From assembly GCA_943736015.1 (NCBI GenBank), contig OX031058.1:1627001-1691000 (forward strand): DNA of 64,000 nt, written 5' to 3'. The position numbers and the translations under genes are program-made. Positions 1,287 through 58,500 of this stretch are shown piece by piece; the first letter of the stretch is position 1, and each line of letters starts with the position of its first letter. The DNA is from Tridacna crocea. Taxonomy: Eukaryota > Mollusca > Bivalvia > Cardiida > Cardiidae. A model generated the notes under the pieces. That model made no database searches. It was not told the DNA's origin and saw only the letters and a program-made list of their open reading frames with translations.

Positions 1287-1292
1287 ATGTGA
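1287..1292 (+). promoter_or_regulatory. Minimal upstream ORF ATG-TGA in the 5' UTR
   Basis: The bases ATGTGA lie 26 bp before the chosen start codon and within the transcript if the acceptor at 1272 is used. A start codon followed at once by a stop is the shortest possible upstream ORF; in other genes such start-stop elements stall ribosomes. Use here is inference. Confidence 0.4.
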
Positions 1293-1312
1293 GAAGAAAG
1301 AGAGAAACCAAC

Positions 1313-22500: not shown

Positions 22501-25500
22501 AAAACATTGTGGAAAAAGAAAATGCTGGTTACCAGCATTTTCTCCTTTTCCCACAATGTTTTCTAAAGGCTTCTTTCTTAGGGTCGTCAAAAGTAGGGAT
22601 TGTGTGGTAATGGGTTATGCATGTTTTACTTGTAAAAAGCTTGGAGTGTTCCTGCCTTTAGATTTCTATCTCTGTAGATGCTCTCTGTTAAGATTTCGGT
22701 TTCAATATTTACAAAGCAAAAAGGTTTTAGACTGTCCAAACTGAAAGTATTTGCAGCCAGATGACAAAGCATATGTCAGGGTTCAAATAAGAAAAGTTGC
22801 CTTTGAAAACATTGGTGGAAAAGGAAAAAAAAAGTTTTTCCTTCAGGGTCGTTAAAAGTTGGGATTGTGTGGTAAAGGGTTATGATAAGCTTACGATTAA
22901 CATACCTTATAGAATAGCACTTTCCGTCCAATAGCTTCATTTTATAGCTATGATAAGCTGTCTGTTTCTATAGTCATTATAAGTTGTATGGTCAGGTGGC
23001 AGGGGACATGGAAACTTGTTCAGGGCTATGGTGAATCACGTCGCCCCGAGCCGAAGGCGAGGTGGCGACATGATTAAACACAACCTTGAACAAGTTTCAA
23101 AGTCCCCTGCCACCTGGCCATACAACAAATTTATTATACTGCAAAGTTTTACCTTTTCAAAGCGTGTGAAGCGAAATTTTCCTGTTTTATCGTCTCACAA
23201 ATAGAGTATGCTTACGAAATAGAAATACCCTTCTGGGTGCCCCAATTCAATGAAAACTGACGTCACTGGAAACTGTCGTCACTAAAACATGCAGTTTGGC
23301 GCATGAACATGCAGTCTGGTGATTGATCAACACAGCCATTATGGATGTTGTGTAGCGGGTGTAGTGATGTTTACACGGTGATGTTTAAGGGAAACTGGCT
23401 TCACATGGTTTTTGCCAGGATATTATGTTCCAGGCATGTTAACCAATCAGATCAGGAGAAATGTCTTTGCAGTATAATGATATTTTTTGTCAAGGATAAT
23501 TTTATGTACATATCTTCCAGATTGACTCAAGACAAAATTAATTGCTGCCAGTTTAGTTGGGATATATTTTGTATACCACAATATCTCGTATTATGGCCTC
23601 CCCATCTTAATTCTTTACCAAACGACAAAATTTTAGACTGGTCAAAATTGAAAGCATTTACAGATGACAAAGTAAAGGTAACTTAAAAATTGAAATTTGT
23701 ATTGAAGAGGAGAGAAAACATTGTGGGAAAAGGAGAAAATGCTGGTTACCAGCATTTTCTCCTTTTCCCACAATGTTTTCAAAAGGCTTCTTTCTCAGGG
23801 TCATCAAAAGTCGGCACTGTGCAGTAAAGGGTTAATTAACATCACCCTCAGCTTTATTTCTTTCCAAAAATAGGCTTACAAGACATCCAGTCCATCAATA
23901 AAATTGAAGTAAATCAGAACAAATTTTTGGCATGGACATAATCCTTTAAGTTACTTCACAAACTGATGTGATTAACACTTGACTATCTCATTTTACATAC
24001 ATTTCCGATAACGTCGTTATAAACTGCTGGTAGCACAAAATTTCTCGACAAACTTGAAAACTTCAACTCTTTACCACAGTTGGTAAAGGTGAAGAAAGTG
24101 AAATTATCTAAGACCATAGTCCCAAATTACAGGTAGTTGTGAATGCTATTTTATGGCCAAATGAATCATAATGGTTGGTTACATATAATTGTTGATATTC
24201 TGCATTAATACAATTGATTTCACAGAGAGCAATTGCTTTACATTCAGTGTTAACTAAAAGGTTATTGTCATCCTCAGAAAATTCTCTGACGTTTTACTGC
24301 TATAAATCACCCTTCCTGTTAGACACCCATGTAGGTGTTAAACGGAGACAATAATTATGGTATATCTGTTTACAGCAATATGGATCAAAAGATGCTTAAC
24401 CCTTTCCCAAACAATCCCTGGTTTTTACAGGTCAGGAATAGAAGCCTTTTGAAAACATTGTGGGAAAAGGAGAAAATGCTGGTAACCAGCATTTTCTCCT
24501 TTTTATACGCCCGTCGAAGACGGGACGTATTATGGGATCACCCGTGGCGGGCGGGCGGGCGGGCGGGCGGCGTCCAGTTCTTTGTCCGGAGCATATCTCC
24601 AAAACTATACAACCTAGGGTTATGAAATTTCATGGGTGGATAGATCTCATCGAGGCGGAGTGCAGTGCACAGGAATCATAACTCTTGCTCGCTTAATTTT
24701 TGAGTTATTGCCCTTTGTTGTTTTTCATACTTGAATTTTGTCCGGAGCATATCTCCAAAACTATACTAGCTAGGGTTATGAAATTTCATGGGTGGATAGA
24801 TCTCATCCAGGGGGAGTGCAGTGCACAAGAATCATAACTCTTGCTTGCTTAATTTTTGAGTTATTGCCCTTTGTTGTTTTTCATACTTGAATTTTGTCCG
24901 GAGCATATCTCCAAAACTATACTAGCTAGGGTTATGAAATTTCATGGGTGGATAGATCTCATCCAGGGGGAGTGCAGTGCACAAGAATCATAACTCTTGC
25001 TTGCTTAATTTTTGAGTTATTGCCCTTTGTTGTTTTTCATACTTGAATTTTGTCCGGAGCATATCTCCAAAACTATAGTAGCTAGGGTTATGAAATTTCA
25101 TGGGTGGATAGATCTCACTGAGGGGGAGTGCAGTGCACAAGAATCATAACTCTTGCTTGCTTAATTTTTGAGTTATTGCCCTTTGTCGTTTTTTATACTT
25201 GAATTTTGTCCGGTGAATATCTCCAAAACTATACTAGCTAGGGTTATGAAATTTCATGGGTGGATAGATCTCACCGAGGCAGAGTGCAGTGCACAGGAAT
25301 CATAACTCTTGCTTGCTTAATTTTTGAGTTATTGCCCTTTGTCGTTTTTCATACTTGATTTTTGTCCGAAGCATATCACCAATACTATACTACCTAGGGT
25401 TATGAAATTTCATGGGTGGATAGATCTCATGGATTGGGGGTGCAGTGCACTTAAATCACAACTCTTGCTTACTTAATTTTTGAGTTATTGCCCTTTGTTG

Positions 25501-28500
25501 TTTTTCATACTTGAATTTTGTCCGGAGCATATCTCCAAAACTATAGTAGCTAGGGTTATGAAATTTCATGGGTGGATAGATCTCACTGAGGGGGAGTGCA
25601 GTGCACAAGAATCATAACTCTTGCTTTCTTAATTTTTCAGTTATTGCCCTTTGTCATTTTTTATACTTGAATTTTGTCCGGTGAATATCTCCAAAACTAT
25701 ACTAGCTAGGGTTATGAAATTTCATGGGTGGATAGATCTCACTGAGGCGGAGTGCAGTGCACAGGAATCATAACTCTTGCTTGCTTAATTTTTGAGTTAT
25801 TGCCCTTTGTCGTTTTTCATACTTGACTTTTGTCAGAAGCATATCTCTAAAACTATACTAGCTAGGGTTATGAAATTTCATTGGTGGATAGATCTCATCA
25901 AGGGGGAGTGCAGTGCACCAAAATCACAACTCTTGCTTACTTAATTTTTGAGTTATTGCCCTTTGTTGTTTTTCATACTTGAATTTTGTCTGGTGCATGC
26001 CCCAGCTTTACAACTTGGGGTAAGACGGGCGTATCTTGCGACAATTTGCCGCTCTTGTTCCCGCAATGTTTTCTACCCTATCATGTAGAAAAATCATCTT
26101 TTTAGCAACTGTTAATTTGTCATCTGCAAAATGCTTTGAATTTGGCCTGGTCCAAATTTTGCTGTTTGGGAAAGGGCTAACTCTTTACCACACGTTACAG
26201 ACTTTAACAACATAGAGAAAAAAAGCCATTTAAAACATTGTTTGAAAAGGAGAAAATGTTGGTAACCAGCATTATCTGCTTTTCCCACAATGTTTTCTAC
26301 CTTTCCTAAATCAAATTTCAATTTTACAGTCACATTTATTTTATCGTCTGCAAATGCTTTAAAATTTGTCGTTTGGTAAAGAGTTAAACTGACATCTGTT
26401 CATACTTCGAATTTGTATGACTTTTTTCCTTTGTTTGGTAAAGAGTTTGAAGTGCATGTGATAAAAGCTGTGTCAAACATAGAAATCGTCTGTAAACAGT
26501 TTCAAATAGGATACATAAAAAATAATGCCATTTGATCTTCCTGGGATTTGAGCCTAGTAGTTTAGATTGCATTTGACAGGGCTAGCATTCTATTGTAGCA
26601 AAATCACTTATCCCAGCTTATCTAAGTGTTGTGAAATTGCAAAGAACTTATGATATTTTTTAGATTTTATTCTTTTCAGTACAGGTATGGTTTTTATTTT
26701 TCATTTTCAACTGTTTTCAATATTGCTAAAATGATAACATTTGTTTTTAGATTTAAAGATATTTTATTCATCATAAATAATTATTATGATATACTAAAAA
26801 CAACAATACAACATATTAGCATTTTTCTTTGTAATCTTTATAATATTGTAGGAAAAAGTAGTACGGTAAATTTAGTCCCCATTTGTTTTTAAGCTAGCAG
26901 AAAAGATTGTGGGAAAGGCAGAAAATGCTGGTTACCAGCATTTTCTTATTTCCCTTCAATGTTTACAAATATCGCACCATGGTTCATCAAAACATGGGGT
27001 TGTTTGGTAAAGAGACAATCCTAGATTAGCATAATAATGATTTGTTGTTATTCATGATAGAGGCCGAGAAAAAGAGGGCAGAAAGTCGCGGAACTCCAGT
27101 TATAGGTAATCTGTACAGATAAATCATTAACAGAGCTTTAGAACAGCTACTTTTCTCAGCTTTTTAACAACAGCTTCTGTACTGCTACCTGTACTCCTTG
27201 CATACTTTGCTGATTTTATCTTCTTAACCGTTTACCACACAATCCCAACTTTTGATGACCATGAGACAGAAAGACATTGAAAACATTGTGAGGAAAGGAG
27301 AAAATGCTAGTTAACAGAATTTTCTCCTTTTCCCACAAAGTTTTCTACCCTATCAAAGTAAGGTTGCTTCATTTGAGCCACCATGAAATTGTTGCCTGCA
27401 AATGCTTTCAATTTGGATGGGCCTAAAATTTTGCTGCGTGGTAAGGGGCTAAAGATGCCTAATTTGTTTTTTATGCTGTAATTCACTTAATCAAAATTTC
27501 TAGTAAAATATCAAGAAATACATAGACAATATTTGTTTTTTTTTCTTTGGTGAAAGTTCGAAATTTATATCATCAAATGAAAATTATTGGTACATGTATT
27601 ATTTTTGGTCTTGGCATAGCCACAAATATAAATATCTCAGATGATGTTCATGGGATGACAGAAATTTCGATCTTTCACTTAAAAAAAAAAATCTATTTAT
27701 TTCATGCTAGGGCCAAATTTGGCATGTACCTTTATCTGGTGGACCTCTACCAAGTTTCTTCAAATTATAGTCCTGGGGTCAAATTTGATCCCGCCCCGGG
27801 GTCACAAGTTTTATATGAGCCTAATATAGGGAAAAACTTGGAAAATCTGCTTGTATCTAGCCATAAGGCGTAAGGCTACCAAATTTGGCATGTATCTTTA
27901 TGAAGTGGGCATCTACTAACAATACCCAATTTATAGCCTTGAGGTCAAGTTTGGCTCCAGCCCAGTGGTCTCAAATGTTACATGGGTTTTTATAGTGAAA
28001 ACTGTATAAATCTTCCTGTTACCAGATGTAGGGCTAGGGTTAGCTCTGTCTCAGGGGCCTCATGCTTTACAGAGCCTTTCATTGAGGAAATTTTGAAAAT
28101 CTTTTTGTGTATAACCGCATATTCCAGACCTGTATTTTTTTGTATGGGACTTTATCTTATGGACCTCCACCAGGATTCAAGTAATTATAGCTTTATAGTC
28201 AAAAACGGCTTTACTCTGGGGCCATAACTTTCTCTTAGGATTTTATAGACAAAATTGTATGTCTTCAAGTTTGAAACCAATTGGCCAAGTATTGTAATGT
28301 TTGGGTTGTAGTGTTTTTACTTATTAGCCAGTGGAGCAATACAGGGCCATCATGACCCTCTTGTTTATGAAAACTTTTCAATGAATTGATACTTTTGATA
28401 AGGCAGTATTGTTAGGTGCTGATTGTTTCATATACATATATTGACAATCTTATGTAAGTTTTATATATAATCGCTTTCAGTAATTCAAGCAACAGTTTAT

Positions 28501-31500
28501 TAGACTGGTCCTACAAAAAAGTACTTGCAGGCAAAGAAATGAGCTGTCTCCAAAAGGATAGAAAACATTGTGGGAAAAGGAGGAGAAATTCAATGCTGGT
28601 TACCAACATATTCTTCTTTTCCTACAATGTTCTATATAGCCTTTGCCCTCAGGCTCTTTAGAACTTGGGATTGTGTTGTAAAAGTTAAAAAAATGCTTAA
28701 CTCTTTACCAAACAACAAAATTTTAGACTGGTCAAATTTGAAAGCACTTGCAGACAACAAAATAACTCAAAAATTGAAATTTGTTTCCAGCATGACAGAA
28801 AACATTGTGGGAAAAGGAGAAAATGCTGGTTACCAGCATTTTCTCCTTTTTCCACGATGTTTTCAATAGGCTTGTGTTGTTTGGTACAGGGTTAAGAGTA
28901 GCTAGTTTGCTCAGCTTTTTAACAACAGCTTTTGTACTACTGCCTCTATTCTTTACCTACATTGCTGACTTTATGATCGTAAGTCTGTTCAAAATAAAAA
29001 TTTTTATGAAAAAAGTTCTGATGAAATTTCTTTTATGATGAGATAGTTTATCCTATTCTTACATACAAAATCCATATTTAACAAAGAAACAAATAAATGC
29101 ATAGCTCAAATACAAACGGCATCTAGCAGGATTCGAACCCTTGAAGGGACAAATAACCTCGCTTTTGAGGATTAAAATAAAAAACCAATAACAAAACCAA
29201 TGAGCCAAAGAGATTTCCCTGACGCAGTTGTCAGGTATTGTATTTAAATCGGGACGAAGCTATGCTTGGAGAGTAGTCTCCCGTAACACCCCCCATCTTA
29301 TAGTCATTATTTATTGATGACTCAAAACCTTATTAAAATGGCAGAAATTTTGGACAACAAATGGGATTAATGGCTCAATGGACAATCCCAGACGAGCCCC
29401 CATCTTACAAACAAGGGTCGTAAGAAAGAAACAAATAATGCATAGCTCAAATACAAACTGTATATGGTGGAATTGGAACCCTTGAAGGGACAAATAAGCT
29501 AGTCTTTCGGGCTTTATAAGACCAATACCATAACCACTGAGCCAAAGAGAATTCTCTCTGATGTAGTTGTTAGGTATTGTATTTAAATCGGGACGAAGCT
29601 ATGCATGGAGGAGTGGTCTCCTGTAACACTGTCACTTGCAGCCTCTTCCACCCAACAAAGGGTACCATATCCTCAAGATTTGTAAAGTTTTTTTTTTTTT
29701 ACAAAACTTTCAACATTATGTTGATACTTGTTGTCTTTCGTAGTAATCTGATGTTGAATAACTTGCTTTGATTCTTCGTTTCTTCATTTTCTCATAATAT
29801 ACTGCTCAGAAAAAATGTTATCCTGCTTTTTGTTCTTTTCTGTGTCATAGTCAGTGTCAGTATTAATGAATGAATAGACATTTAAATTTTCTTATAGAAT
29901 GTTGGTAGTGTTTTTCAACATAATCTTTCAGTCTCAATAAACTGTAAAATAGAAAATATCTCAATTTATTAATCATGGTAATACAAGCTAAAGTGCAGTC
30001 TAACTACAAGTTCGAACCAGTTATGTAAAAATATATGTTACCATTTTATTTTCTCACAATGTTTTCTAAAGGCTTTCTCTTCAGAATTGTTTAAAGTAGG
30101 CATTGTGTGGTAAAGGATCTAAGAACAGGCCAGTGAAGTCATTTATACCAAATGACAAAATTTTAGGCTTGTCCAAACTGACAGCATTTGCAGAGGACCA
30201 AAAAAAAAAGAGACTGAAAATTTGAATTTCGTTTTGGGAAGGGTAGAAAACATTGTGGGAAAAGGAGAAAATGCTGGTAACCAGCATTTTCTCCTTTTCC
30301 CACAATGTTTTCTAAAGGCTTCTTTCTCAGGGTCGTCAAAAGTAGGGATTGTGTGGTAATAGGTTATAAGACCAAAATGTCAGATGCCAGAGTTATTGAG
30401 CCCCAGGATTGTAACAGTTTTGGTTATAAACAGTGACAAACAAGTTATATACTCTATCTTAGTGAAAAAACTTCTATACAGATTCCTCATGTTTCTTTGT
30501 AAACTGATAATAATTACTGTTAGCTCTTACGTTACATATCACGACTCACTGACCTTTTGCAGACAGTATAGATCAAGATCAGACTTCACAGAACGTGCAG
30601 TCTGATGTTTGATCTACACTGTGGCACAAGGAGATATTATTTCCAGAAACATAATTATCTCTGAAATAGCAATATTTGGATTCGAAATCAAAAATTTCAT
30701 TTTAGTTATTTAGCAGGATAAAGGTTAGAGTTCAATTCTAAACAGATTTCCTATGTTTATTTGTAAACTGATAATTACAGTTTAACTTAAAGTACCGGTA
30801 CCTGATAATTACAGTTAATCTTGGTACCATTTAGTTTTATATCTGTGTTGAGTTGTGAGGATAAATAATTCAAACAGTGGATTCTTTTTGAAGTTTAATC
30901 CATTACCACACAATCCCTACTTTTGACGACCCTGAGAAAAAAGCCTTCAGAAAACATTGTGGGAAAAGGAGAAAATGCTGGATATTAGCATTTTCTCCTT
31001 TTCCCTCAATGTTTTCTACCCTTCCCAAACCAAGTTTTATTTTTCAAGTTATGTTTAATTTGTTGTCTGCAATTGCTTTCAGTTTGGACAAGTCTAAAAT
31101 GTTATTGTTTGGTGAAGATTTAAACATAGTACCATTTAGTTTTATATCTGTGATGTGTTGTGAGGATAGATAATTCAAACAGTGGATTCTTTTTTGAAGT
31201 TTTATCAGTCAGGTATTAGGAGTTTTCATGATTAAAACTAGAACCATTTGTCCAAAGGGGTCCTACATGGCTCAGCGGTAAAGTTTAGGACTTTAGGGCT
31301 GGATTATGGTTTTTTGTCAGAGAGCCCTTGGGCAAGACACTCTAGAGCCCTAGCCTAGTACTGGTTTAACTCATTACCAAACAACAATATTTCAGGCTTG
31401 TCCAAATCGAAAGCATTTTCAGACGACAAAATGAAGACTTAAAATTTGAAATTTGTTTTTTGAAGAGTAGAAAACATTGTAGCTAAACATTGCTGGTTAC

Positions 31501-34500: not shown

Positions 34501-37500
34501 GAAGCCGTCTTCTCTCCTTGATAAAAGAAATGTTCATGGACGTGAAAGTAAATAGAAAGATAGTGGTAGTAGTCAGAAATCATACCAGGGCTCGTATTTA
34601 CCATCTAGAATTTCCTGTACTTGAAAGTAACATTACTTCTGATTGGCTAAACCATTCGGTTTAGCCAATCAGAAGTTATGTTACTTACAAATGTAGAAAA
34701 TTTTGGAGATTAAAACTAATAATATTATCAAGAATGGTTGGTGAATACAGGCCTAGATTGTTGTTTATTTTACTGAAGCTTTGATTAATTTGATTATTAT
34801 GTAAAACCCCCTTTATGCATATTTTAGGGCAAGACTCAAAGTATGGTAATGAGGTATGAAGTAATTTGCATACTGCAGGGTTATCTTGAAAGCAAAAGAT
34901 TGCACACAGAATATATATTTACCTGAAAGCTTTTTGATTAATTAGTTGGTGGCAGCTTTTTAACCCTTATCTATAACAACAAAGCTATGTTACATCCTAG
35001 TGTATCCATGCATTTAGCATGCATCCTCATCTATTTTTAGCTTGGCCTGTCTTTATGATGGTGTCACTGCAAACAGAAATATGCCTTATCAGTATGCTTT
35101 CATCAATTTCTTTGAGATTAAGAAAAGGAATACAATTCAGAATGGTTGCAGAATACGGCCCTAGATTCCAAGACCTACAGACTGGTACTGTTTAGGTTAA
35201 TTTGTTGGACATCTGAAGTAGGAGGGGGCCATAGTCTATGACACACCTGAACTTTTTTTCAGGGGATATCAACGGAGAAATGTGCATACAATGCATATAT
35301 GTGGTACATATGTTTATGTGTTGAACCTTTGACTTTATTCTTTTTCATGAACATAAAGTTGGATTTCTCATATACAATGCACAGATTGGGTTCTGTATAT
35401 ATGTAAAACATATGACTGTTTTCTTTTTCAGGGACATATGAGTGGGATTACATGTATACAGTATGACAAAAGAAGGTTGATTTCTGCTGGACTGGACAGA
35501 CTTATTCGTATGTGGGACATCAGAAGTGGGCGGAGCCTGCACAAGTTTTACGGACACAAGGTAGGGAATCATCAAGAGTTATATCTTTATCACACAGCTA
35601 AAATATAGACTTTTCCAAAAAGAAAGCATTTGCAGATGATAATTCAAATTTACCTTATATGATGAAAGTTGTCTTTCATAGGTTAGAAAACATTGAGGGA
35701 AAAGGAGAAAATGCTGGTCACCAGCATTTTCTCCTTTTCCCATAATGTTTTCTGAAGGCTTCTTTCTTAAGGTGGTTTAAACCTGGGATTGTGTGGTAAA
35801 GGGTTACCTCTTTATGGATCATAACATTTTAGACTTATCTGAATATGAATTATTGGTAAGCAAGCTACAAATTTACTCTTTTCCAAACAATCCTGATTTT
35901 AAACACCTGGAGGAAGATACTTTTGAAGACATTATGGGAAGAGAAAAAATTTCTGTTATTTTCTCCTATTGATGTTTTAACTTTTTAATGGCAAGTTCCT
36001 GTTTTTTTGTATAATTATACCCCCACAAAATGAATAATTTCTGGGGTATACTGTCTGTTGGCCCATGTGTATGTCAGTCTATGTGTTCATCTGTGTGTCT
36101 GTCCGTGTACAAAATACTGTCATCATATACAGTCGAAACTGTCTTAAGCAGCCAACCAAGGGACAAGCCAAAATTGGCTGCATACGACAGTTGGCTGCTT
36201 AACACAGATCAGATTAGCAAAACTGTTTTCCATTCTTTCACAACAAATTCAAAATTTTCAATCACATTTATGATTTACATGGTTGTCTGCAAAAGCTTTC
36301 AATTTGGACAAGTCCATTTTTTTTTTAATTCCTCTGCCGATGATAACTGTTGAAAACATTGTGGAATGAAAATAGAAATCATTCCTCATGAGCACTTTCA
36401 CCTCTTCCAGTCTTTCTCTGCTAAAGATTTTTATTGAAATCAGTAGATTTCCTTCGTTATCCAAGACCCATAACGTGTATAACGTGTGTACATCCGAAGT
36501 TGACATCTAGAGTTGACACGCGTGCGTGTATTTTAGGTCAATCGAGTTCATTGTTTATAAATAGAAATAAAGGTACACAGTTTTACCCATGGTCAATCGA
36601 TCGATTTGAAAACGGTCCGAGCAGGTAGGCTACTTGTCAGAGTGGAATTAATGTTGTTCACCTCACGTAAATGTAAAGCAGGTAAATTACATGTATGTTG
36701 TGAATTTTATCTACAAACGCAAAATAACATATTCATCGCGATCCCATGATGCAGGCAATATTGAGCGAAAAGTTAATAATCAACGAAAACGATGATAAAA
36801 AGCGAAGTTTTAAACTCTTGTGCTCAAACTGATCGGTGGAATTCCAATCAATCTAAAAATAGACAACCTGCAAACCTGACATCACTGACGTTCAACGTCG
36901 GCAATATTCGACGGGTTAGCCAGTGACTTTCAGTACGTCAGATTGCCTTGTTTGATCGTATTTTTTCTTGTAGACCACAGTATTGGGAAACGAAAAAGAA
37001 TAATAATTTTTTACTGTCCCAAAATTTACGCAAATTACGGTAATCGACGCCATTTTGGAAATTGGTAACCTCGTTTTCAATAGTAATGTAAAGCATTGCG
37101 GGGAAGCAGCGTCTATCTGCCGATCAGCAAAGAATAGCCCGCTATAACGCCGTTTATGCAAAGTATACACCTACACTATGAAGTTCAATTGTTTATCACA
37201 CATGTTGATTGGTATAGCGTCGCGGTGTATGCACACGGAGACAGACGTGTTTAATTAATTTTTCACACCACCTGCTAGCATTTAGTCGGGTCGCGTGACC
37301 ACTTTATGGGATATGCTTTAAGTGCAATTAAGATCTTCAAACGTGACCGCTGACCACATATCACAGTTTACCGTTAATTAAAGGAATTTAAAGAGTTAAT
37401 TTGCACGGGCGGGCCTGAACTGACCGTTAATCACAGATTGGCCGCTACGCACGTATGACCGCTAACTCAGATTCGACTGTATTTTGTCATCTTCAAATTT

Positions 37501-40500
37501 CGTCATTTAGCAGAAATGTAAAATCTAGACACCTAGTCTGTATTCACCAACCATTCTTAAGGAAATTCTTGGTCCTATCCTTCAAAATTTCCTGAACATG
37601 AAAGTAACAGGACTTCTGATTGGCTAAATCATTTGGTTTAGCCAATCAGACGTCCTGTTACTTTCACATTGACAAAATTCTGAAGAATAAGACTAAGAAT
37701 GTTCTTAAGAATGGTTGGTGAATACAGACCCTGGAAGAAGGTTAGATGAGGCAATGATGATGGAATTTGTCTTTAAAAAATCAGAAATTTTGGGGGAATA
37801 AAGAAGAAAGTGTTTGTTAGTGGCATGTTATTCATTTGTCCACACTGTGTATATTCAAAAGTTTACTTTCCTTGGATAGTTAAAACATTGGATTGTTTGA
37901 CTACCTCTTTACTGAATGACAAAATTTTAGCCTTGTCTAAATGTTAACTATTTTTTTAGACAGGGAATATGATGCATTCAAATTGCTGGGATTTGTTTTT
38001 GGTAGGTATGAAAACATTGTAGAAAAAGGAGAAAATGCTGATAATCAGCATTTTCTCCTTTTCCCACAATGTTTTGAAAAGCTCTCTTGCTTAAGGTGGT
38101 TAAAGCTTTGGGTTTCTCCTTTTCCTGCAACATCTTTATAAGCTCTCTTGCTTAAGCTGGTTAATACTTTGTATAATTTGATGATAGGTTCTTTAAGGTT
38201 CAGAAATAATTTTTGATAGAAAAACCAATGCCAGACTGTCTGTATTCTATTGCAGGGTGGTATCCGATGTATGGTATTTGTGGGAAATGAACTTCTCACG
38301 GGATCCTGGGATACAACTATCATGGTAAGATATTGAACAATTTTTTTTGTGGATTGATATATGTCACAATATCAGAATTCTAAACAGATTGTAGATTTTA
38401 ATATGATGATTTTTCAGTTCCTCTTAACCCTTTACCACACAATCCCTACTTTTAACGACCTTGAGAAAATGACCTTTTGAAAACATTGTGGGAAAAGGAG
38501 AAAATGCTGGTACTCAGCATTTTCTCCTTTTCCTACAATTTTTCTACCTTTTCAGGAACAAGTATTATCATTCAAAACACATGTGTATTGTCCACTGTGA
38601 ATTCCATGAATGAAGACCTGTCTGAAATTGTGCTGTGTGGTAAAGGGTTAAAGGGTCCATATTTACTGACCATTCTTTACAAAATTTGCTGGTTACCAGC
38701 ATTTTCTCCTATTCCCACAATGTTTTCAGAAGGCTTCTATCTCAGGGTCATAAACACCAGGGATTGTTTGGTAAAGGGTTGAAACCCCAGCCTGCGGTTT
38801 GACAGAGCCAGGCAATTTAACCCTTTCCCAAACAAGCCCTGGTTTTTACGGGCCAGGGATAAAAGCCTTTTGAAAACATTGTGGGAAAAGGAGAAAATGC
38901 TGGTAACCAGCATTTTCTCCTTTTCCCACAATGTTTTCTACCCTATCATATAGAAAAATCATCTTTTTAGAAACTGTTAAGTTGTCATCTGCAAATTGCT
39001 TTCAGTTTGGTGTGGTCCAAAATCTGTTGTTAACAAAAATATTTTGCAAGTTCAAGAGGAGATTACCATTGAATCATAGGGAGTAGATGAGTTTGAATAC
39101 TGTGTCTTGCACAACTTCAATATATGATCAATATATCTGTAAAGTTTCCATACAATTGAAGGAAACCTGTAGGAGGAGTTTGCGACACAAAATTATTAAT
39201 ATTTTGTACACAGACAGAAACACAGATGGACGGACAGACAGGCTGATTCCAGTATACCCCTGAAAACATTTTTTTTGCGGGATTATAATGATGGGGTAGA
39301 ATGGCAGAAAATTTATGAAAAGCATACGGTGTTGATTCATATCAGCCTGCGCAGAACAAAGTAAAATAGACTATAGTACATTTACCTTACATGTCTGCAA
39401 GTGCTCCTATTTTGAATTATATGAAATTTATCGCTCATGAAAGAGTTAGACTGCTTAGTGGCTCACAGGCCTTTTCTATGAAAAGTGTTGTTACTAATAA
39501 AGTCTGTAACAAAGAAACAAATGCATAGAAATACAGGGACTGGACTGGATTTGAACCTAGGATGCCTGGATAAAAGACCAACACCATAACCACTGAGCCA
39601 AAGAGAATTCTCCCTTATGCAGTTGTTAGGTATTGTATTTAACTCATTACCAAACAACAAAATTTTAGGTTTATCCAAATAGAAAGAATTTGCAGGCAAG
39701 ATAATAAAAGTGACTGAAAATTTGAAATTTGTTTTGTGAAGGACAGAAAACATTGTGGGTAAAGGAGAAAATGCTGGTTACCAGCATTTTCTCCTTTTCC
39801 CACAGTGTTTTCCAAAGGCTTCTTTCTCAAGGTTGTCAAAAGTAGGGATAGTGTGGTAATGGGTTAAACCAGGACGAAGCCATGCATGAAGGAGTGGTCT
39901 CCCATAACAGTGTGTGTCAAGACCAGATTGGACAGAAATTGTAGTCTGGGTCCATATTCACCAACATTCTTTATCTTATTCTTCAAGATTTCCTGACTGA
40001 AAGTAACAGAACCTCTGACTGGCTAAACCGTATGGTTTAGCCAATCAGAAGTTCTGTTACTTTCACATTGACAAAATTCAGAAGAATAAGACTAAGAATG
40101 TTCTTAAGAATGATTGATGAATACAGACCCTGATCTTGAATCTTTACTTCCAATTAAGTGCCAAGAAGAGCTTTTAACCCTTGACCAAACAAACCCTGGA
40201 TTTAACGACCCTGAGGAAGAAGCCTTCTGAAAACATCAGGGGAAAAGGAGACAATACTGGTAACCAGCAAAAAAGAAAACTTCTAAAAACATTATGGGAA
40301 AGAAGAAAAAAAATACTTGTAACCATCCTTGCATCCTTTCTCCACAATGCTTTTCTTCTGTTTCAAAAATTTTCAGTCACATGTATTTTGTTGCCTGCCA
40401 ATGCATTTGAACCATGTATCACATACCAATGCATGGATCACATACCCATGAATCCATAATATCCGCTTCTTTAAACAACCAACTTAACAATGAGATAGAC

Positions 40501-46500: not shown

Positions 46501-49500
46501 CCATTCATTTTTTCCATATATTTTGAATTCCAAACGAGTTAAAAAAAGAACAATCAGACATACTCCAAGCATTTGCAGACAACCCCTTCTTACTCCACCC
46601 TTGTCTGCTACAGATCTATATTTTCATTTTGTAAAACAACAACATTTTTTTTTTTCCACTCATGAACGGAAATTTAACTTCCATTTGTTGCTTTATTCAG
46701 AGATTTGTGTAAGTTTACTGTTTGAATTCATTATTAAAGATGAGAGGATGGTTTGAAGTCCCTCTGATCTGACAATGCCACGCTGCTCATTGCAGTGTCA
46801 TGGGTTTTCACGCTTTTTTGGCAATCTATTTTTTCATGACAATTAATTTTTGGAGAAGTATTACTACATGATTTGACATCAGTTAGTCACATTAATTAGC
46901 AAGTAACTTAAAAATCTGTCAGTTTACACTAGATAAGAGGAATAATACCTTTGTTACTTTGTCATAAATGACTTGCCAGCTTCATTATCCGCATGTCTTT
47001 CACATGTTATACTGATCGTGTTTAGCCAATATTTCTGCCGGATGCATGCAAGCTAGGTTATATGAAACTCTATACCATAATTTCATGCATCATATTGACA
47101 TTTAGGCAGATATTTTTCATTGTCAAAGACAGGTCATTTCAAATTTAAAAGTGTCAAAACCTGGTTCATGGATCAAATGAGAAACATGCCTAAACGACTA
47201 CAATCAATTCAGGGATTTCTTGATCGATTATCGGAATCAGAAGCCAAAACCAACTGACTTTCGACAACAGTCGATAATGGGCCCACCATTACTCTTTACC
47301 AAACCAACAAATTAAAAGCATTTGAAGACAAGGAAATACCTGGAAAATTGAAATTTGTCTCCAGTACAGTAGAAAACATTGTGGGGAAAAAGGAGAAAAT
47401 GCTGATTACCAGCATTGTCTCCTTCCTTTTCCCACAGTGTTTTCGAAAGGCTATTTTAAGATCGTAAAACCAGGGATTGTTTGGTAAAGGGTTAAAGACC
47501 CTGGGCAGGGAAAGGACCGACTGTTGAAAACTGTAAAAGAAGAAAATGCTGGTAACCTTCTACCCTATCTAAGAAAAATTGCACCATTTGAGCAGCATTG
47601 ACATTGTTGTCTGCAAATGCTTTCGATTTGGACAAGTCTAAAACTTTATCGTCTGGTAAAGAGTTAACCCTTTCCTAAACGACAAATTTTTGGACTAGAC
47701 CAAATTGAAAGCATTTGCAGACAATTCAACTCTTGCTGAAAAGATGATTTCTATCTATGGTAGGGTAGAAAACATTGTGGGAAAAGGAGAAAATGCTGGT
47801 TACCAGCATTTTCTCCTTTTCCCACAATGTTTTCTAAAAGCTACTATTCCAGACCCGTAAAAACCAGGGAATGTTTGGGAAAGGGTTAAAATAAGGTGTG
47901 ACCATCCCCCAATTAGAAATCGGCTGTGTCTGTATTTATCAACCAAATATCTCAAGCATATTCTTTGGCTAATTCTCAAGAATTTTTTAGATCTGAAAGT
48001 AAAACAACTTCTGATTGGCTGAACCAAATGGTTTAACCAATCAAAAGTTGTGTTAGTTTCAAGTGGTACTGTTTGATGAAGGGTAAACATCCTGTTATTA
48101 AATATTTTCTTGACTACGAAATTTAAGACATGCGGAAATCAAAAGCATTTGCAGACGTAAATGTAAATGCAACCCTAATGATTTGATTTTCTTTTGAAAG
48201 ATTAGAAAACATTGTAGAAAAAGGAGGAAATGCTGGTTTCCAGCATTTTCTCCTTTTCCTGCAATTTTTCCAAGAGGCTTCCTCGTCAGGGGTGTTCAAA
48301 TTTTGGATTGTACAGTCAAGAGTTACTAGCTATATTCTAGGCTATGAAAATTTAATTGCAGCAAATAAAGTTATCTGAAAATCAGTTGTTAAATTTTGCA
48401 GATACGGTCTTGTTAGCATATTTCTGAGGTGTGTTCAACTCTTTACCGAACGACAAAATTTTGTACAAGTCCAAATTGAAAGGATTTGCAGACGACAACA
48501 TAACTGTGAATCAAAAATTGAAATTTGAGTTGGAAAGGATAGAAAACATGGTGGAAAAAGGAGAAAATCCTCATTACCAGGATTTTCTTCTATTCCCACA
48601 TTGTTTTCAAAAGCTTTTGTTCTCAGGGTTGTCAAAAGTCAGGACTATGTGGTAATGGGTTAACTCTGTACCAAACGACAAAATTTTAGACTGGTCCAAA
48701 TTCAAAGCATTTGCAGATAACAAAACAAAGGTGACTTGAAGTTTGTTTTAGGAAGGGTAGAAAACAATGTGGGAAAAGAAGAAAATGCTGGTTACCAGCA
48801 TTTTCTTCTTTTCCCACAATGTTTTCAAAAGATTTTCTTTTACAGTGTCTTTTAAAGTCGGGATTGTGTGGTAAAGAGTTAACCCCTTTCAGTCTAGAAG
48901 CTAAAATGGCTTTCTCGGATTGCATAGACCAAGATCAGACTGCACAAAACATGTTCTTTGATCTACCTTTTCCGCTTGTTTTAAGTCCTTTTTTTTTTGA
49001 TAACCAAACTGTTTACACATATTGATTGGAACACACCCAAGGAGTTTAAATGATACTAAAGAAAAAGCCTTTTCAAAAGATTGTGGGAAAAGGAGAAAAT
49101 GCTGGTAACCAGCATTTTCTCCTTTTCCCACAATCTTTTCAAAAGGCTTTTTCCAATGTTTTCTACTCTTCCCAAAACAAATTTCAATTTTCAAGTCATC
49201 TTTAATGTGTCATCAGCAATAATTGCTTTAAATTTGGACAGGTCTCAAATTTTGGCATTTGGTAACAAGTTTTAGGACCTACTTTGTCCCTATGTATTTG
49301 CATGATGATTTGGAAGAAAGTATGCAGTACTTTTCCATATTGCATACTTTGATCATATTATATAGCTTAGAGCTTTTTTCACTTACCTAAGTACTGAACT
49401 ATTTTAAAACCGGCCATATCTCTAAAAATCATAATGTGAAGGGCTGCTATTATAAAAAAATTCAGAGTTAGAGATGTTTTACGAACTTTTCAATGCATAG

Positions 49501-52500
49501 TTCATATAATAAACTTGAAAAATAAACAATTTATTTATTTCCTGAATATCAGTGACTACAAAGGTATGAAAAATTTGTCTATCGAATATGTTTATCAATG
49601 ATGAAATTATTAAGCTATGAAAAAAGATCTGCAGTGGCCATCTTATTTGTTTACATACCTTTAGCAACTGTCAGATGTTGTCAAAAGCCAGTGTTAAAAA
49701 GTCCGCCAAACAATGATAGGTCGACAAAACAGATTTCTTATCGCTTTTAGAATTTTAAAATAAGCAAAATAAATTAAGTAGTTTGATGAAAACACTGTTA
49801 AATCAGTTGAAATTATGTAACAATATCAAAGTATATAATAAAAAGGTCATTGCATCTGTATGGGAATATATTGTGTTGAACTCGTTCTTTTGATATAGTT
49901 GCCCTTGCAAGCTCGGGCAGCTCTGCCAAAAGAACTTGTTCAACACAGTATTAATGATTATTGCACTTGTATTGGAATATATTGTGTTAAACTTGTTCTT
50001 TTGATGTAGTTGCCCTTGCAAGCTCGGGCGGCTCTGCCAAAAGAACTTGTTCAACACAATATCATGTGTTATTGCACTTGTATTTGAATATATTGTGTAG
50101 AATATGTTCTTTTGGTGTTACAAAGTTGCCCTTGCAAGCTCAGGCAGCTCTGCCAAAAGAACTCATAATTATGACATATTATATTCCCATGCAAGTGCAA
50201 TAACCTATAATATGAGACCCAAATGATACACTATAGCAGTTATGCTGTAGCTGAGGAAGGGTGAAAATTACACTTGCATGTCCTTCTCAATATACATACG
50301 TAATTACAAAGAAATTAGTACAGTAATGAAATTCAATTTGTGAAACATTAAACAACCACAATGTCCTCACATTAGTCTGTAATATATGATCTTTTTATGT
50401 CAAGTTTTCTTTTGTTGGGAAATTTATAGAGTGTTAGAAATTAGTTGAAAAGAGTTATCCCTTTGCCAAAAAATCCCTGGTTTTTACCACCCTGAGATAG
50501 AAGTCTTTTGAAAACATTGTGGGAAAAGGAGAAAATGCTGGTAACCAGCATTTTCTCCTTTTCCCACAATGTTTTCTACCCTTCACAAAACAAATTTCAG
50601 ATTTTAAGTCGCTTTTTATTTTGTCTCTGCAAATGCTATCAATTTGGAGGAGTCTAGAATTTTGTTGTTTGGTAAAGAGTTCCATATCCCCCTGTGAGCT
50701 GGACTCTTTACATAACAGTACAACATTTTTTCTCATGCAAAGATGTTAGACTTTAGACAATGTATAGTTGGAAAAGGAGCAAATGCTGGTGGCTAGCGAT
50801 GTCTACTGTCCTTACAATGTTTTGTACCTTTTCATTGATAAATCCCAACGTATGGAGCACATTTGTCTTCTGCACACACTGTTTGTATAGGTTTGAGTAC
50901 AATCTTGTTGATAGGTAGAGGCTTGACCCTTTAAGCACCTACTATTGAACCACATCATCTATCGATGGCTGAAAATTTAATGCACTGAAACTCAGATTCT
51001 TATAATATATACTTGACTAAACAAGTGGACAGCATAGATCCACGATCAGACTGCACATTCTGTGCAGTCTGATCTTGATCTATGATGTCCACAAAAGCTT
51101 GTATAGTTGCAGATGGCCATGAAGGGACAAATGATCTAACAGCCCTTTAATGATGTAATGAATGATAATTGATTCTAAGTGCTTCAAATCAAGGCCGTCC
51201 TACCACATTGCCCAAGGCAAACAACTTTTTTTGCCTTGCAGACTGGGACCCAACACAGGAAATATTGCTGCATAAGGGAAAACTGTTACTTGTAAGCAAT
51301 TTCTTCATTTCTGCAATATTTTCGCTTTTGTTACAGTAGACCACTCCTTCATGCATGGTTTTGGCTCTGATTTATTCATACAATACCTAACAGCTGCATT
51401 AGAGAGACGTCTCTCCAACTCAATGGTTATGGTATTGGTCTTTTAAACCTTGAAAAACAAGGATATTTTCTTGTCATGGGTTCAAATCCGGCCAGAGGGT
51501 GTTTTATATTTCAGTTTATGCATTTGTTGCAAACTTTCATGTTCGTAAGATGGGGGCTGGTCCGGAATTGGCCACTGAGTCATTAATCCCATTTGTTGTC
51601 CAAAAACCGACTTTCTGCCTAATAAGGCTTCGAGTCATCAATAAATGATGACTTTGATGGGGAACTTGAAGTGTAGGTAACTTTGGCAGATCTGTTCTTG
51701 ATGGGTACGGTATCTACCTGTTGCCGATATAAGACTTGACGATTTCACAGAGTGAGTGCAATTATAAGACATTAACGCCCAGGTTTGCATTATCAGTATC
51801 CGCAATCTGGGCTTACCTTATAAACAAACTGTAAGAATTTGCACCATACTAGATCCTCTATATGGCTTGTCTTTGATGATTTAAGGTCTCTGTGAATGTT
51901 AACGACCTCAAAAACATGAATTAACCCTATATTAACCCATCCTGTAATAATCGGAAAGCACGTTGCAGTTGGGGTAGAACATATAATTTTGGCCTGATCA
52001 TGCCTGAAGCCCTTGTCATATCAAACCTGTTCCTATGAAGTCTTACCTGGGGCAACAAAATAGTAAAAAGGGATTGGACATGTAATGTCGATCAACAAAA
52101 TACAAAAATGTTCGGAACAAAGTGAGAACGAGTTTGGTGCGACAGGGGTATAAAACACGGCAAAATAGCCTGTAATAGCTTTGTGAAGGGTGAACAATTT
52201 ATTTATTGACTTTAACTACATAATAAATCTTCCTTATTTTATGGTAATCTTGCCTTCTCATAAGATGAATTTGTCTTTTAGTTTTTGAACTGTATCTTTT
52301 GCTGTGTGACTTAACTCTTTACCAAACAACAAAATCTTAGTCTGGCCCAAATTGGAAGCATTTGCTGATAACAAAATAAACATTACTCAAAAAAGGAAAC
52401 TTGTATTTAAAAGAGTGGAAAACATTGCGGGAAAGGGAGAAAATGCTGGTTACCAGCATTTTCTCCTTTTTCCACAATGTTTTCAGAAGGCTTCTTCCTC

Positions 52501-55500
52501 AGGGTCTTTAAAACCAGGGATTGGTTGTTGAAGAGTTAGATTAAGCGTTATTTTTTTTTTATTTATTTGACAATTTCAGTTGCCTTCAAAACCAGAATTA
52601 TAGGCAATCCAACTGTTATAATTTTGCTCAACTCTGTACCAAACAATAAGATTTTGGACTTGACCAAATTGAAAGGATTTGCAAACAACAATTTCAATGT
52701 GGCTCATTTAATGGAGCATTTTATCCTTTTCCCTCTATGTTTTCCTAAGGCTTCTTTCCGAGGGGTGTTAGATTTGTTGGCATTGTGAGGTAAAGGATTA
52801 ACACTTTACCACACTTTATACCCTGTCTGCACTCTGACAGTATTTTGTACACAGGTGGACACACAGGCGGACACAGGGACAGACACACTTATGGATGGAC
52901 ACACAGACAGACAGGCTGATGCCATATCCCCAAAAACATTCATTTTGTGGGGGTATAATTATGGACTTGTTCATATAAAAGCATTTGCAAACAACAACTT
53001 CATTGTAGCTCAGAGGATAAAACACTCTTTGAAATGGAAGGAAATATTGTGGGAAAGAGGAGAAAATACTGGTTACCAGCATTTTCTTATTTTCCCACAA
53101 TGTCTTCAAAAGGCTTTTTCCTCAAGGTTGGGATTGTGTGGATAGAGTTAACTCTTTACCAAATGACAATATTTTAGGCTTGTCCAAATCAAAAGCATTT
53201 GCAGATGACAAAATAAAAGTGAATAAAAAATTTGAATTTTTTTTTCGTAAAGGGTAGAAAACATTGTGGGAAAAGGAGAAAATGCTGGTTACCAGCATTT
53301 TCACCTTTTCCCATGATGTTTTCTAAAGGCTTCTTTCTCAGGGTCGTCAAAAGTAGGGATTGTGTTTTAAATTAATGGCTTTACTGTCGGCTACCTAAGT
53401 ACTCAAATTGGTTCAGACTTTTAATGCTTTACAAACCAGACCTGTGTTTTGAGGACACTACAAGAGAGGACTTTTAAATGTTGTGGAAAAAAGAGAAAAT
53501 GCTGGTCACAGAAAATTTGAGTCAAATGGTGTAAACGATGGAAAGTGTACAGACAAAGTAAACTAGAGCTGCCACTAAATGTGTCTTAATACCCGCGCAA
53601 GCGCTTTGACAGAAATAGGCAATTACTAGTATTTTGTACATGGACTGACACACAGGTAGACAGGCTGATTCCAGTATACCCCCAAAAACATTCATTTTGC
53701 TGGGATATAATGATTGGTAGAAAGTAGGGGATTTGAAATGACAATGTGGACGGTAAGAAAATTTTATGCCAATCTTGGAATGTCACCTGTCAAGAGTCAA
53801 AACAAAAATGTTGTTCTAAAACGTTTAAAAATGTTTCTGGAGCACAGGGCTCGGTTTTACGAAGGTAGTTACGAACAAAATTTGCGTAAGTTTTATGTAA
53901 CTAGTATATGTAACTGCTGTGAGATAAATCAAAGTTTGTTGGAAATTTTTCATCTAGATAAGATGAAAAGATAACATTTTCAGGAAACTAAATATAATAT
54001 AAATCTATTTCGCAATAGTTTTCTAAAATAACCACGATAGTTATCATATATCTTGTGGCAGATTAATGCCACTATTCTGTAGTTACATAAAACTTACAGA
54101 AATTTTGTTTGTAACTACTTAGTGAAATGGGGCCTCCTGGGTTACAAGTGTGGCATGTTCTAAAACAGATTAACCCATTACCAAACAACAATATTTTAGA
54201 CTGGTCCAAATTGAAAGCATTTGCAGATGACAAAATAAAAGTAACTGAAAATTTGAAATTTGTTTTGTGAAGGGTAGAAAACATTGAGGGAAAAGGAGAA
54301 AATGCTGGTTACCAGCATTTTCTCCTTTTCCCACAATGTTTTCTAAAGGCTTCTTTCTCAGGGGCGTCAAAAGTAGGGATTGTGTGGTAATGGGTTAAAA
54401 GTCAAAGAAAAGTCCAAATGAATGAAAAAACCTGTTTATGAAATAAAAGTAAATTTCATTTTTACCATGTAAAAAAATGGCGATTATTATGACTCACGAA
54501 ATGTAAAGATGCAGTTCATAAAAGTTCCAGTCAATGGCAGATGGGTTATCTGAGAGATTTTCGAGTTATAAATGGTGAAAATTATCTAGTTTAGTAATTA
54601 ACTTGGCATTGATCTTATCAAGCCCGTGGTCTAAATCTTGGAATAAGACTAAGAACATTATTACGAATGGAATGGTTGGTGATTATGCTAGACCAGAAGT
54701 TTTTATCTCCTTGAATCAATCTTCAGAATCTTCTATATAAGTAATGTAAGTAACACAACTTCTGATTGGCTAAACTATTCGCTTTAGCCAATCAGAAGTT
54801 GTGTTATTTATAAATTTAGAAAATCGTGGAGGATAAGACTAAGAAAATTCTCAAGAATGGTTGGGGAAATGCTGGCCCAGAAGTTTTTATCTCGATGAAT
54901 CAATCAGGCCCACCTGTGACCAAACACCTGTATAAAACAGTGGAAGTGATGGATTGATGAAGGTAGAACCTTTCACCATAGAGACTATCAATTTCATTCT
55001 GTCTGCTGTTTTGCAGGCCTTTGACAATTATGTGGATTATCTGGGTTTTTTTTTCTGTCTGTCTCCCCTAAATTTTGTCAAAATGCGACTGACACTGATA
55101 GTTCTTCTAATTGTTCCTCATTGTTGGTTGTTGTGTGTTTATGCCTTAACTTTTTACCAAACAACAAATTTCTAGACTGGTCCAAATTGAAAGCATTTGC
55201 AGACAACAAGATAAATGTGGCTCAAAAATTGAAATTTGATTTGGGGAGGGTAGAAAATATTGTGGGAATTTTCTCCTTTTCCCACAATGTTTTCTACAGG
55301 CTTTATACTCGGGACCTTTAAAAGTCGGCATTGTGCGTTTAAACACTTTACCAAACAATCCCAACTTTAAATGACTCTGAGAAAATAGCGTGTAGAAAAC
55401 ATTGTGGGAAAAGGAGAAAATGCTGGTAACCAGCATTTTCTCCTTTTCCCACAATGTTTTTTACCCAATTAAAGGAAAATTGAGCCATTTGAGCAGAATC

Positions 55501-58500
55501 GAAATAGTAGTCTGCATAATTATGCTTTCAATCTCGACTCGGCTGAAATTTTGTTGCATGGTACACGGTTAATTTTTTACCAAACCGCTATATTTTAGAC
55601 TGAATCCAAATTGAAAGTGATTAGAGAAGAAATTCAAATGTAATTAAAATGATAGCATTTGTTCTTTACATGGAAGAAAACATTATTGGCAAAAGACAAA
55701 ATGCTGATAAGAAGCATTTTCTCCTTTTCCCACAATTTTATCAGAAGGCCTCTTCTTCACATTTGTTAAAACCCTGGGTTGTGTGGAAAAGGCTTAAAAC
55801 ATAAAAGATCTGAGATTTTATTGGTCTGAATTTTTTAGTATGCATGAAGATTTGGTAATCTTTTAGTATACTATTAGGTAAAATAAATACCATTTTATAA
55901 CCTATCGTATTTTGTTTGAGATAAAGAATTATATGAAATATTGAGGCAAAATTGATGGTTGTTTCTGTAGAATTCTAATCTTTTACTACACAATCCAAAG
56001 TTTTATCGACCCTGAGAAAGAAGCTTCCTGAAAACATCATGGGGAAAGTAGAAAATGCTGGTAACCAGCATTTTCTTCTTTCCCCACAATGTTTTCTAAC
56101 CTTTCATAGGTAAGTTTCCAAATTTGTACTCTATTAAGATCAAAATTATTATTTGAGTCACATTTAAATTGATGCCTGCGAATGCTTTCAATTTGGACAA
56201 GGCTAGAATTTTTTCATCTGGTAAAGAGTTAATAATGCAAATATCATTGAAAGCATTTTGCTGCCAAAATCAGAAATGTGACTGAAAAATTGTGTTTATT
56301 TTTTGAAAGGGTAGAAGACATTGTTGGAAAAGTGGAAGATGTTTTTTACCAACATTTTCTCACAATGTTTTGAAAAGCCTTTTTCCCCCCCTGACGGTGG
56401 CAAAAACCTGAGATTCTTTGGTTAAACTTTAACTCTTAAAGCGCCTTTCATATCTACAGTTGCCTATCTGGCGAGTGTAAATTAAGATCAGACTGCACAT
56501 TCTGTGCAGTCTGATCTATGAACTATATTATCTGTTCTTTTGTGACATTCTGTATAAGATTGACCATAAAATTGCGAGTGTATATTATGTCTTAATTCTA
56601 GACAAAAAATGTGGCCATTTTTTTAATGAGCTGTTAAAGGTTAACCCTTTACCACACAATCCCAACTTTTAGAGAAAAGAAGCCTCTCATAAAGGAATTT
56701 CGCCTTTGAGGAAAACAAGCCTGTAAAAAAGTAGCCAGAAAAGCAGAAAATGCTGGTTACAACATTTTTTTTCCTTTTTCTACAATGTTTTTTATGCTTT
56801 GAAAGATAAATTTATTGTTTTATCGCATTACCAAAAGGTAATATTTTAGACTGGTCCAAACTGAGAGCATTTGCAGACAGCAAATTAAATGAAGCTGAAG
56901 TTATGGAATTGTGGCTGAAAGAGTGTAAAACATTATGGAAAAAGGAGAAGATGCTGGTTGCAAGTAATTTTTATCCTTTTGTCACAATATTTTCAAAAGC
57001 ATCTTTTGTTAAGGTTGTTGTGGATGACAAAATAACTAGAGTTCAAAATGATTCGATCTGACTAAGATAGTATAGAAAACATAGTGTGGAAAGGAGAAAA
57101 TGCTGGTTACCAGCATTTTCTCCTTCTCCCACAATGTTTTGAGAGGGCTTCTTCCTCAGGATCATTAAACTAAGGACTGTTTGGTAAAGGGTTAAGAAGA
57201 GGCATACAAAGTTGTATTTTAAAGAAGGGTTATTTTCAAAGGCCTTCATATATTGATGAGAGTGGTTTTAACTCGAGGCACTGTCTTTCATTGAACAAAG
57301 ATGTATTTATTCGAATTTTGATCCTATCAAATTATAGAGAAAATCACTAAAACAGGTGTCGGAATTTTCAAACTGTTTTGATTTTAAAAGAATACGCAAA
57401 TTACAGCAATTGATCAAAGGTTTAAGAAGTAAAAGAAATTGCACTAACATGATCTGAGGTTAAAATTTTACCCTTAACATGTTTTGCCCCCTACCAGTGA
57501 GCAAAACGGAGAAAGAGGACCCTTGAAAACATTATGGGGAAAAAGAAAATACCAGCATTTCTTCCATTAAAAAAAAGACCCTCTTACTGACTTTACTTAT
57601 TTTACTATACTTAACTTACTTTAAAAATTTTTTTTTTACTTGTCAAGTTGACCTAAAAGTCGTTACAGATGACAAATGAACTCTTTACCAAACAACAAAT
57701 TTTTTGACTGGACCAAATTCAAATCATCTGCAGACATCAAATTAAATCTTGTTAATATGATGATTTCTGAATTTGATAGGGTAGAAAATATTGTCGGAAA
57801 ATGAGAAAATGCTGTTTACATTAGCATTTTCTCGTTTTCCCATAATGTCTTCGATAGGCTTCTTTCTCAGAGTCGTTAAATGTTGGGATTGTGTGGTAAA
57901 CAGTTAAATATAGCTTAACTCTTTACCACACAATCCTGACTTTTAACAACCCTGAGAAAGAAAGCATTTAAAAACATTGTTTCAAAAGGAGAAAAACACT
58001 GGTAACCTGCATTTTTTCCTCTTTCTTCAATGTTTTCTACCCTTTCGAAATCATATTTCACTTTTCTATTTACATGTACATTCAATTTGTCATCTGCAAA
58101 TGCTTTCAATTTGGACAAGTTAAGAATTTTGTTGTTTGGTAAAGAGTTTAATGGTGGTTTAGGTATTGGATAGAATAGAAAACAGTGTGGGAAAAGGAGA
58201 AAATGCTGGTTACCAGCATTTTCTCATTTTCCCACAATGTTTTCAAAAGCCCTCTCATTCAGGATTGTAGAACTCAGGATTGTGCGGTAAAGAGTTAAAT
58301 AACACCCCTGTATGGTAACACTTTACCCCATAAGGCATTTCTATGGTATCTCTAACTGACCCTAAATTATAACAGCAAGAATGAAGTTGTTTCTTATGTG
58401 TATATGACACCTTTTGATAGCATAGAAAACATTGTGGCAAAAGATGAAATTGCTCGTCACGAGCAATTTCACCTTTTGCCACAATGTTTTCCAAAGGCTT

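Follow-up and report, generated by a model that had tools for sequence, protein, structure and literature searches.

The most abundant repeat of the window (the whole stretch of 64,000 nucleotides under analysis), MITE-A, is very probably a non-autonomous piggyBac MITE that is mobilised by a transposase encoded in the same genome, duplicates TTAA upon insertion and has recurrently entered a second repeat, SINE-1. As far as sequence can tell, its target-site duplication, its ends and a lineage of partner elements (carrying PF13843 transposases) place it in the piggyBac group, as the preliminary description of this DNA had proposed, and its classification through filled sites and a partner lineage provides a solid annotation of this repeat. 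We envisage that a piggyBac transposase from another locus of this genome, most likely that of the A64/A72 lineage described below, would recognise the CYC(T/A)TTACC ends, cut MITE-A out and insert it at a TTAA sequence that would thereby be duplicated, and that SINE-1 would collect such insertions over and over because its TTAA lies at a fixed place.

A MITE-A insertion in SINE-1 and its empty counterparts

The features of the filled site and of the SINE-1 copies compared with it are as follows.

39489 to 39638, minus strand: SINE-1 part left of the MITE-A insertion (outer edge by eye; minus-strand motifs resembling A and B boxes)
39639 to 39642: left TTAA of the filled site (sequence, flank alignment)
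39643 to 39863, plus strand: MITE-A copy of 221 bp with the ends CTCATTACCA / TGGTAATGGG (sequence, profile match)
39746 to 39812: central palindrome of this MITE-A copy (reverse-strand self match; in the consensus, 33-bp arms around one base)
39864 to 39867: right TTAA of the filled site (sequence, flank alignment)
39868 to 39909, minus strand: SINE-1 part right of the MITE-A insertion (outer edge by eye)
29400 to 29632, minus strand: empty SINE-1 copy with its TTAA at 29583-29586 (sequence, flank alignment)
29079 to 29289, minus strand: empty SINE-1 copy with its TTAA at 29244-29247 (sequence, flank alignment)
51329 to 51524, plus strand: SINE-1 copy with the mutated site GTATGAATAAAT (flank alignment)
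955 to 1166, minus strand: further, contiguous SINE-1 copy without MITE-A inside

The preliminary description had reported that 221 bp of MITE-A split the SINE-1 copy at 39506, and both the sequence and the two empty copies (29244, 29583) agree with this. The MITE-A copy at 39643-39863 is flanked by TTAA on each side; it is directly preceded by GTATTGTATTTAA (39630-39642; the left flank ends in GTATTTAA) and directly followed by TTAAACCAGG (the right flank starts with TTAAACC). In the two empty SINE-1 copies, the unsplit site reads GTATTGTATTTAAATCGGG (also given as GTATTTAAATCGGG) and contains a single TTAA. The flanks of the insertion align with the empty copy at 29515-29632 at 93% identity over 72 bp on the left and at 86% over 50 bp on the right, and with that at 29177-29288 at 85% and 83%, respectively. 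Exactly four bases, TTAA, are doubled in the filled copy relative to each of the good empty copies; the claimed duplication of TTAA was thereby borne out, and it recurs in both orientations at SINE-1 loci elsewhere in the genome. In a third comparison, with a SINE-1 match running from 51445 to 51329 (minus) whose site is mutated, two bases were found instead of four.

When the flanks of 59 MITE-A copies were aligned against all other parts of the window, nine of these copies gave candidate empty sites. One is the copy at 39643-39863, with 4 bp against both good SINE-1 copies, and three are MITE-A copies nested in another MITE-A copy:

62457 to 62677, minus strand: 4 bp in seven of nine comparisons
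13137 to 13356, plus strand: 30 of 32 comparisons offset by 6 bp
63356 to 63576, minus strand: 16 of 20 comparisons offset by 7 bp

The collection of more empty sites, a check that had been suggested at the outset, supported four bases at the first of these copies but not at the other two. At 62457-62677, the other two comparisons gave 3 and 1 bp, and the right flank is poorly matched (E 0.19 in the three alignments inspected). The copies at 13137-13356 and 63356-63576 are not clean events; we read their 6- and 7-bp offsets as TTAA plus host indels, because mutations have altered TTAA at these copies and their hosts are old. Of the remaining five candidates, each with one comparison, four hit only the right flank of the element itself, and 55344-55568 matched another neighbouring MITE-A end pair with a 13-base gap, so that these sites are uninformative.

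Copy number and ends of MITE-A

An iterated profile yielded 131 non-overlapping MITE-A matches in the window, covering 21,838 bp or 34.1% of its length, in keeping with the initial claim that MITE-A is its most abundant repeat; the same profile gave 0 matches on five simulated sequences of 64 kb. The element has the attributes of a MITE, being short and uniform in size, with TIRs and a high copy number. Near-full-length copies numbered 58 by a first rule and 59 by a slightly wider, later one. TTAA is present at the left end in 37, at the right end in 39 and at both ends in 27 of the 59, while the chance level is 4.3% per end (random positions, with a tolerance equal to that allowed for the MITE-A ends). 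When the copies were aligned to a consensus, as had been recommended, each of the four TTAA positions was 80-90% conserved, the bases beyond were close to random (76 left and 69 right ends), and CYC/CCC ends were evident.

Read inwards, the left end is TTAA-CYC(T/A)TTACCAAACRAC and the right end TTAA-CCC(T/A)TTACCACACAATCCC. Of the 76 left ends, 51 have T and 20 have C as their second base, so that this end is mostly CTC, and the right end is CCC(T/A). The original description of the ends as CYC and GGG calls for one amendment: the family consensus end is CYCTTTACC, and CYCATTACC, present in the copy at 39643-39863, marks a subset. The commonest left end, CTC, departs from the usual piggyBac terminal motif CC[C/T]T (PMC2872659).

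Open frames of about 100 amino acids run through MITE-A copies and are taken as chance occurrences. The MITE-A core pattern had 0 matches in the viral_contigs collection, from which records of the window's own genome are perhaps excluded, and Rfam had 0 matches to the window at the gathering score.

MITE-A-like sequence made up 22.4% of 26 kb from 14 arbitrary places in the genome (L098-L111; bootstrap 14-33%), a small sample picked by round-number coordinates in which the profile counts fragments as well; three of the 14 places were without it. If this sample holds, the MITE-A-like group occupies about 140-345 Mb, and it may be among the largest components of the genome.

Candidate autonomous partners of MITE-A

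TTAA together with CYC/GGG ends had been put forward as diagnostic of piggyBac. These features are suggestive, but they are not diagnostic alone, because Kolobok also uses TTAA; the window by itself, which had been held to contain its own proof of mechanism, is for this reason not a full proof, and the piggyBac elements of the host genome decide. Sola3 is a further TTAA-targeting superfamily. An origin of MITE-A in either of these superfamilies is scarcely credible. The T2-MITE/Kolobok elements of Xenopus do include MITEs that target TTAA like MITE-A, and Kolobok duplicates TTAA, but according to PMC6004289 their ends are RR/AGGRR and their transposase is another one, whereas MITE-A carries CYC; RR (AG) termini inside the TTAA were not found, and its ends misfit a Kolobok origin. 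Moreover, elements encoding PF13843 transposases have ends that match those of MITE-A, which speaks against both Kolobok and Sola3.

The assembly containing the window comprises 1.05 Gb in 31 contigs and has at least 118 matches to PF13843, the piggyBac transposase domain, many of them within long open frames; 30 loci were extracted. There are autonomous, TTAA-flanked piggyBac families of 2.6-2.9 kb, one of which (2765 bp) has ends such as CCCTTTATATAC and copies that are up to 99.9% identical. One transposase clade in an unrooted tree (L010, L024, L025-L029, L034 and L037; local support 1.0) resides in elements of 6.4 kb and 7.2 kb with MITE-A-like ends. The first of these, A64 (L046:1154-7529), is 6376 bp long, carries a PF13843 transposase in an ORF of 481 amino acids and reads TTAA-CTCTTTCCCACA at both ends, with CTC at both. 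Compared with MITE-A's right end, its left end is identical at 34 of 38 bases when TTAA is included and at 30 of 38 inside TTAA, against a best simulated value of 22 (one 64-kb sequence). The second, A72 (L041:203-7405), is 7203 bp long with an ORF of 486 amino acids and has the ends, read inwards, TTAA-CCCATTACCG and TTAA-CTCATTACCA. Across eight autonomous elements, the 38-base end scores against MITE-A were 30 for A64, 25 for A72 and at most 18 for the others.

Four further copies of A72 (L039, L040, L042 and L043) lie on other contigs with different flanks and are 99.6-99.96% identical to the L041 element over its length; TTAA is absent on one side in two of the six A72 copies whose ends were inspected (on the right in L042, on the left in L043). 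These near-identical copies on five contigs and the 486-amino-acid transposase ORF in L041 indicate that A72 has been mobile recently. Both the A64 and the A72 ORF are uninterrupted and match PF13843 end to end. The A72 transposase aligns with solved chains of piggyBac and piggyBat and, with positions counted by hand from the alignment, has an aspartate opposite each of D268, D346 and D447 of chain 6x67, which we take to be the catalytic residues. A transposase of the A64/A72 lineage may well have moved MITE-A, presumably by cut-and-paste chemistry and with precise excision.

The proposed search for an autonomous partner was accordingly successful as to the piggyBac transposase, its DDD residues and the similar ends, but the subterminal match is confined to one end: the other MITE-A end shares just the TIR with A64. 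Within its interior, MITE-A matches A64 and A72 solely through stretches that resemble nested MITE-A copies. MITE-A therefore did not arise from either element merely by loss of internal sequence, which weighs against the proposed relationship. Also discarded as a partner was the element around the L010 ORF (in L047), whose perfect 12-bp TIR, CCCTATCCTCCA, is not that of MITE-A.

The left subterminal region of A64 (L046:1154-1300) contains about four direct copies of a unit of about 35 bp (with CAATCCCGACTTTTAACGACCC), one of which is kept at the right end of MITE-A; these direct repeats are possible transposase binding repeats.

SINE-1 as a probable recurrent target

The SINE-1 copy at 29438-29640 contains no TTAA other than the one that is occupied at 39639-39867, and 29100-29300 contains just one more besides it, so that insertions into SINE-1 need no special preference. 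When a 407-bp SINE-1 plus MITE-A sequence served as query, many genomic loci showed 82-89% identity and shared both site and orientation (40 scored of 9839 candidates). Among 19 such loci, the 39643 copy included, TTAA was seen by eye at every left end and at 17 right ends, the exceptions being L003 (TTTA) and L052 (GTAA).

These data could also be explained by one old SINE-1 plus MITE-A composite that multiplied as a whole, in which case the 39643 copy would record a single ancestral event rather than an insertion at this place. The constant site and orientation, the outer edges, which by eye are similar in most of the 19 aligned loci, and the changes that L053, L054 and L055 share in both their SINE and MITE parts (these could be copies of one combined element) fit such a composite. 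Uniform orientation, however, was forced by the query, and three further observations oppose the view that the combined loci stem mainly from an amplified composite, an explanation that we regard as unlikely. First, mean divergence across 16 loci is 20.3% for the SINE parts, about twice the 10.0% of the MITE parts, and the two divergences are uncorrelated (Mantel r -0.11, p 0.76); L004, L006 and L050, three of the 19 loci, were excluded from this test, their left part being another SINE-1 subfamily. Second, the MITE parts are not monophyletic: the smallest clade that contains them has 36 of 78 tips, window copies included, and free MITE-A copies of the window are among their nearest relatives. 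Third, 39 SINE-1 copies were collected with the left flank as sole criterion (40 of 3380 candidates scored, leaving aside the copy at 39643), and in this sample MITE-A occupies the SINE-1 site in both orientations, albeit in just three copies, namely L065 (minus), L091 (minus) and L093 (plus); these are 83, 91 and 76% identical to the consensus, belong to different subfamilies and have TTAA on both sides. As the SINE and MITE divergences are unequal and uncorrelated, the combined loci would mostly be separate insertions. Repeated insertion into the TTAA of SINE-1 is the better reading, even if three filled copies are few.

In the same flank-only sample, 30 of the 39 copies were empty, 22 of these with an intact TTAA (by eye); among the rest, one contained another repeat, one had MITE-A at a new downstream TTAA and four were undecided. 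That the empty copies are excision products rather than pre-insertion sites is very unlikely. Excision of piggyBac elements is usually precise, so that excised and pre-insertion sites look alike (PMC2872659), but with 30 empty against three filled copies an empty ancestor is simplest, and excision would leave the superfamily assignment unchanged. With its repeated insertions into one sequence, SINE-1 lends itself as a natural assay of integration, showing how faithfully TTAA is used and in which orientation elements enter.

By eye, the minus strand of SINE-1 shows motifs that resemble the A and B boxes of pol III promoters; ARAGORN detected no tRNA in the window. Most SINE-1 copies (39489-39909; L002-L008, L048-L058) have sharp outer edges with short inverted ends, T[C/G]TTACG ... 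CGTAACA, and thus combine such ends with tRNA-like A/B-box motifs. A second palindromic, MITE-like repeat with the ends GGGTC..TATTCACCAA is present at 39944-40137, 37536-37733, 34610-34753, 47928-48061 and 54745-54863, and in L066 a sequence resembling it fills SINE-1 at the place of MITE-A.

The central palindrome of MITE-A

The MITE-A consensus has a perfect palindrome of 33+1+33 bp in its centre, and this is the most conserved part of the element: in 81 copies, identity to the consensus is 94% in the palindrome arms, 82% in the rest and 83-85% in the terminal 20 bases. In these copies we counted 31 double changes that preserve pairing, with 6.1 expected (permutation; maximum 15 of 1000), and 1-5 when the partners were shifted by 1-3 columns. 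A larger set of 188 distinct hairpins, drawn from the window and from loci fetched for piggyBac or SINE-1 (264 non-overlapping matches, 201 of them spanning the model, from which near-identical rows were removed), contained 104 compensated double changes against 24.5 expected (permutation; maximum 38 of 500) and 11-23 with shifts of 1-4. They are of 36 kinds, 16 of which occur once; one double change accounts for 21 cells and is probably a subfamily mark, and 83 are left without it. The permutation and slide controls do not remove relatedness among the MITE-A copies. Arm-to-arm complementarity is 0.874, a modest gap to the 0.844 expected from independent divergence. An alternative palindrome centre at AAAATTTT (13 pairs) proved to be wrong, with 9 double changes against a null of 7.0 and hence no excess.

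Single-sided mismatches comprised 212 G.T and 187 A.C, about equal numbers that favour no RNA strand; we therefore set aside a one-strand RNA constraint on the palindrome. A role at the DNA level, or self-correction of the palindrome, accords better with this near equality than does a strand-specific RNA. The paired changes would arise either because spreading lineages kept the hairpin or because self-correction of the palindrome copies changes between its arms. We tentatively entertain the idea that the palindrome is a working part of MITE-A, such that the lineages that spread kept a near-perfect hairpin of 33+33 bp while its letters changed in pairs, in a group that would have grown to about one fifth of the 1.05-Gb genome; this is a possibility to which we give somewhat less than even credence.

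Comparison with known TTAA-targeting elements

The closest published case that we found are the CMITEs of Acropora corals, of about 100 bp and with about 1600 copies estimated in A. millepora (PMC2872659). Like MITE-A, they are short, TTAA-flanked MITEs with CCC-type ends and a filled/empty pair (alleles in the case of CMITEs), are tied to piggyBac-like autonomous elements and have an interior that is more conserved than the ends; in both, a new element arose by insertion of a MITE at TTAA (PMC2872659). They differ in that MITE-A is 221 bp long and far denser, and in that its best-conserved region forms a palindrome whose arms carry compensated changes, while 'hairpin' and 'palindrom' occur 0 times in the text of PMC2872659. 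The paired changes in the palindrome make a question posed by the coral CMITEs testable, namely why the interiors of some piggyBac MITEs are more conserved than their ends. In a search of the open-access literature, none of the titles and abstract openings listed names MITE-A.

In Daphnia, Pokey and mPok likewise combine autonomous elements with MITEs that have similar short TIRs, and Pokey inserts repeatedly at one site of a repeated target, the 28S rRNA genes (PMC4912750); Pokey is listed as a piggyBac clade (PMC10813416). The targets differ, being rDNA for Pokey (PMC4912750) and a TTAA within a dispersed SINE for MITE-A. The piggyBac elements of animals share with those described here the TTAA duplication, terminal motifs such as CCCTT/CCCAT, a length of 1.23-9.51 kb and a DDD transposase (PMC10813416). 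A64 and A72 are long within this size range, and their ORFs of 481 and 486 amino acids are just below the approximately 500 amino acids given there; as a further difference, their ends include CTC.

Other features of the window

Open frames of 97, 371 and 109 amino acids at 1277-3672 resemble exons of a protein gene; these frames had no Pfam match above the cut-off, and the 371-amino-acid frame had no notable PDB match. Six frames of the window compared with Pfam gave one match, below the cut-off, and one of these frames compared with PDB chains gave one match, at E 0.44. Tandem arrays are located at 24581-25998 (period 156 bp), 16412-17255 (167 bp), 11405-11885 (75-159 bp) and 49849-50163 (111 bp).
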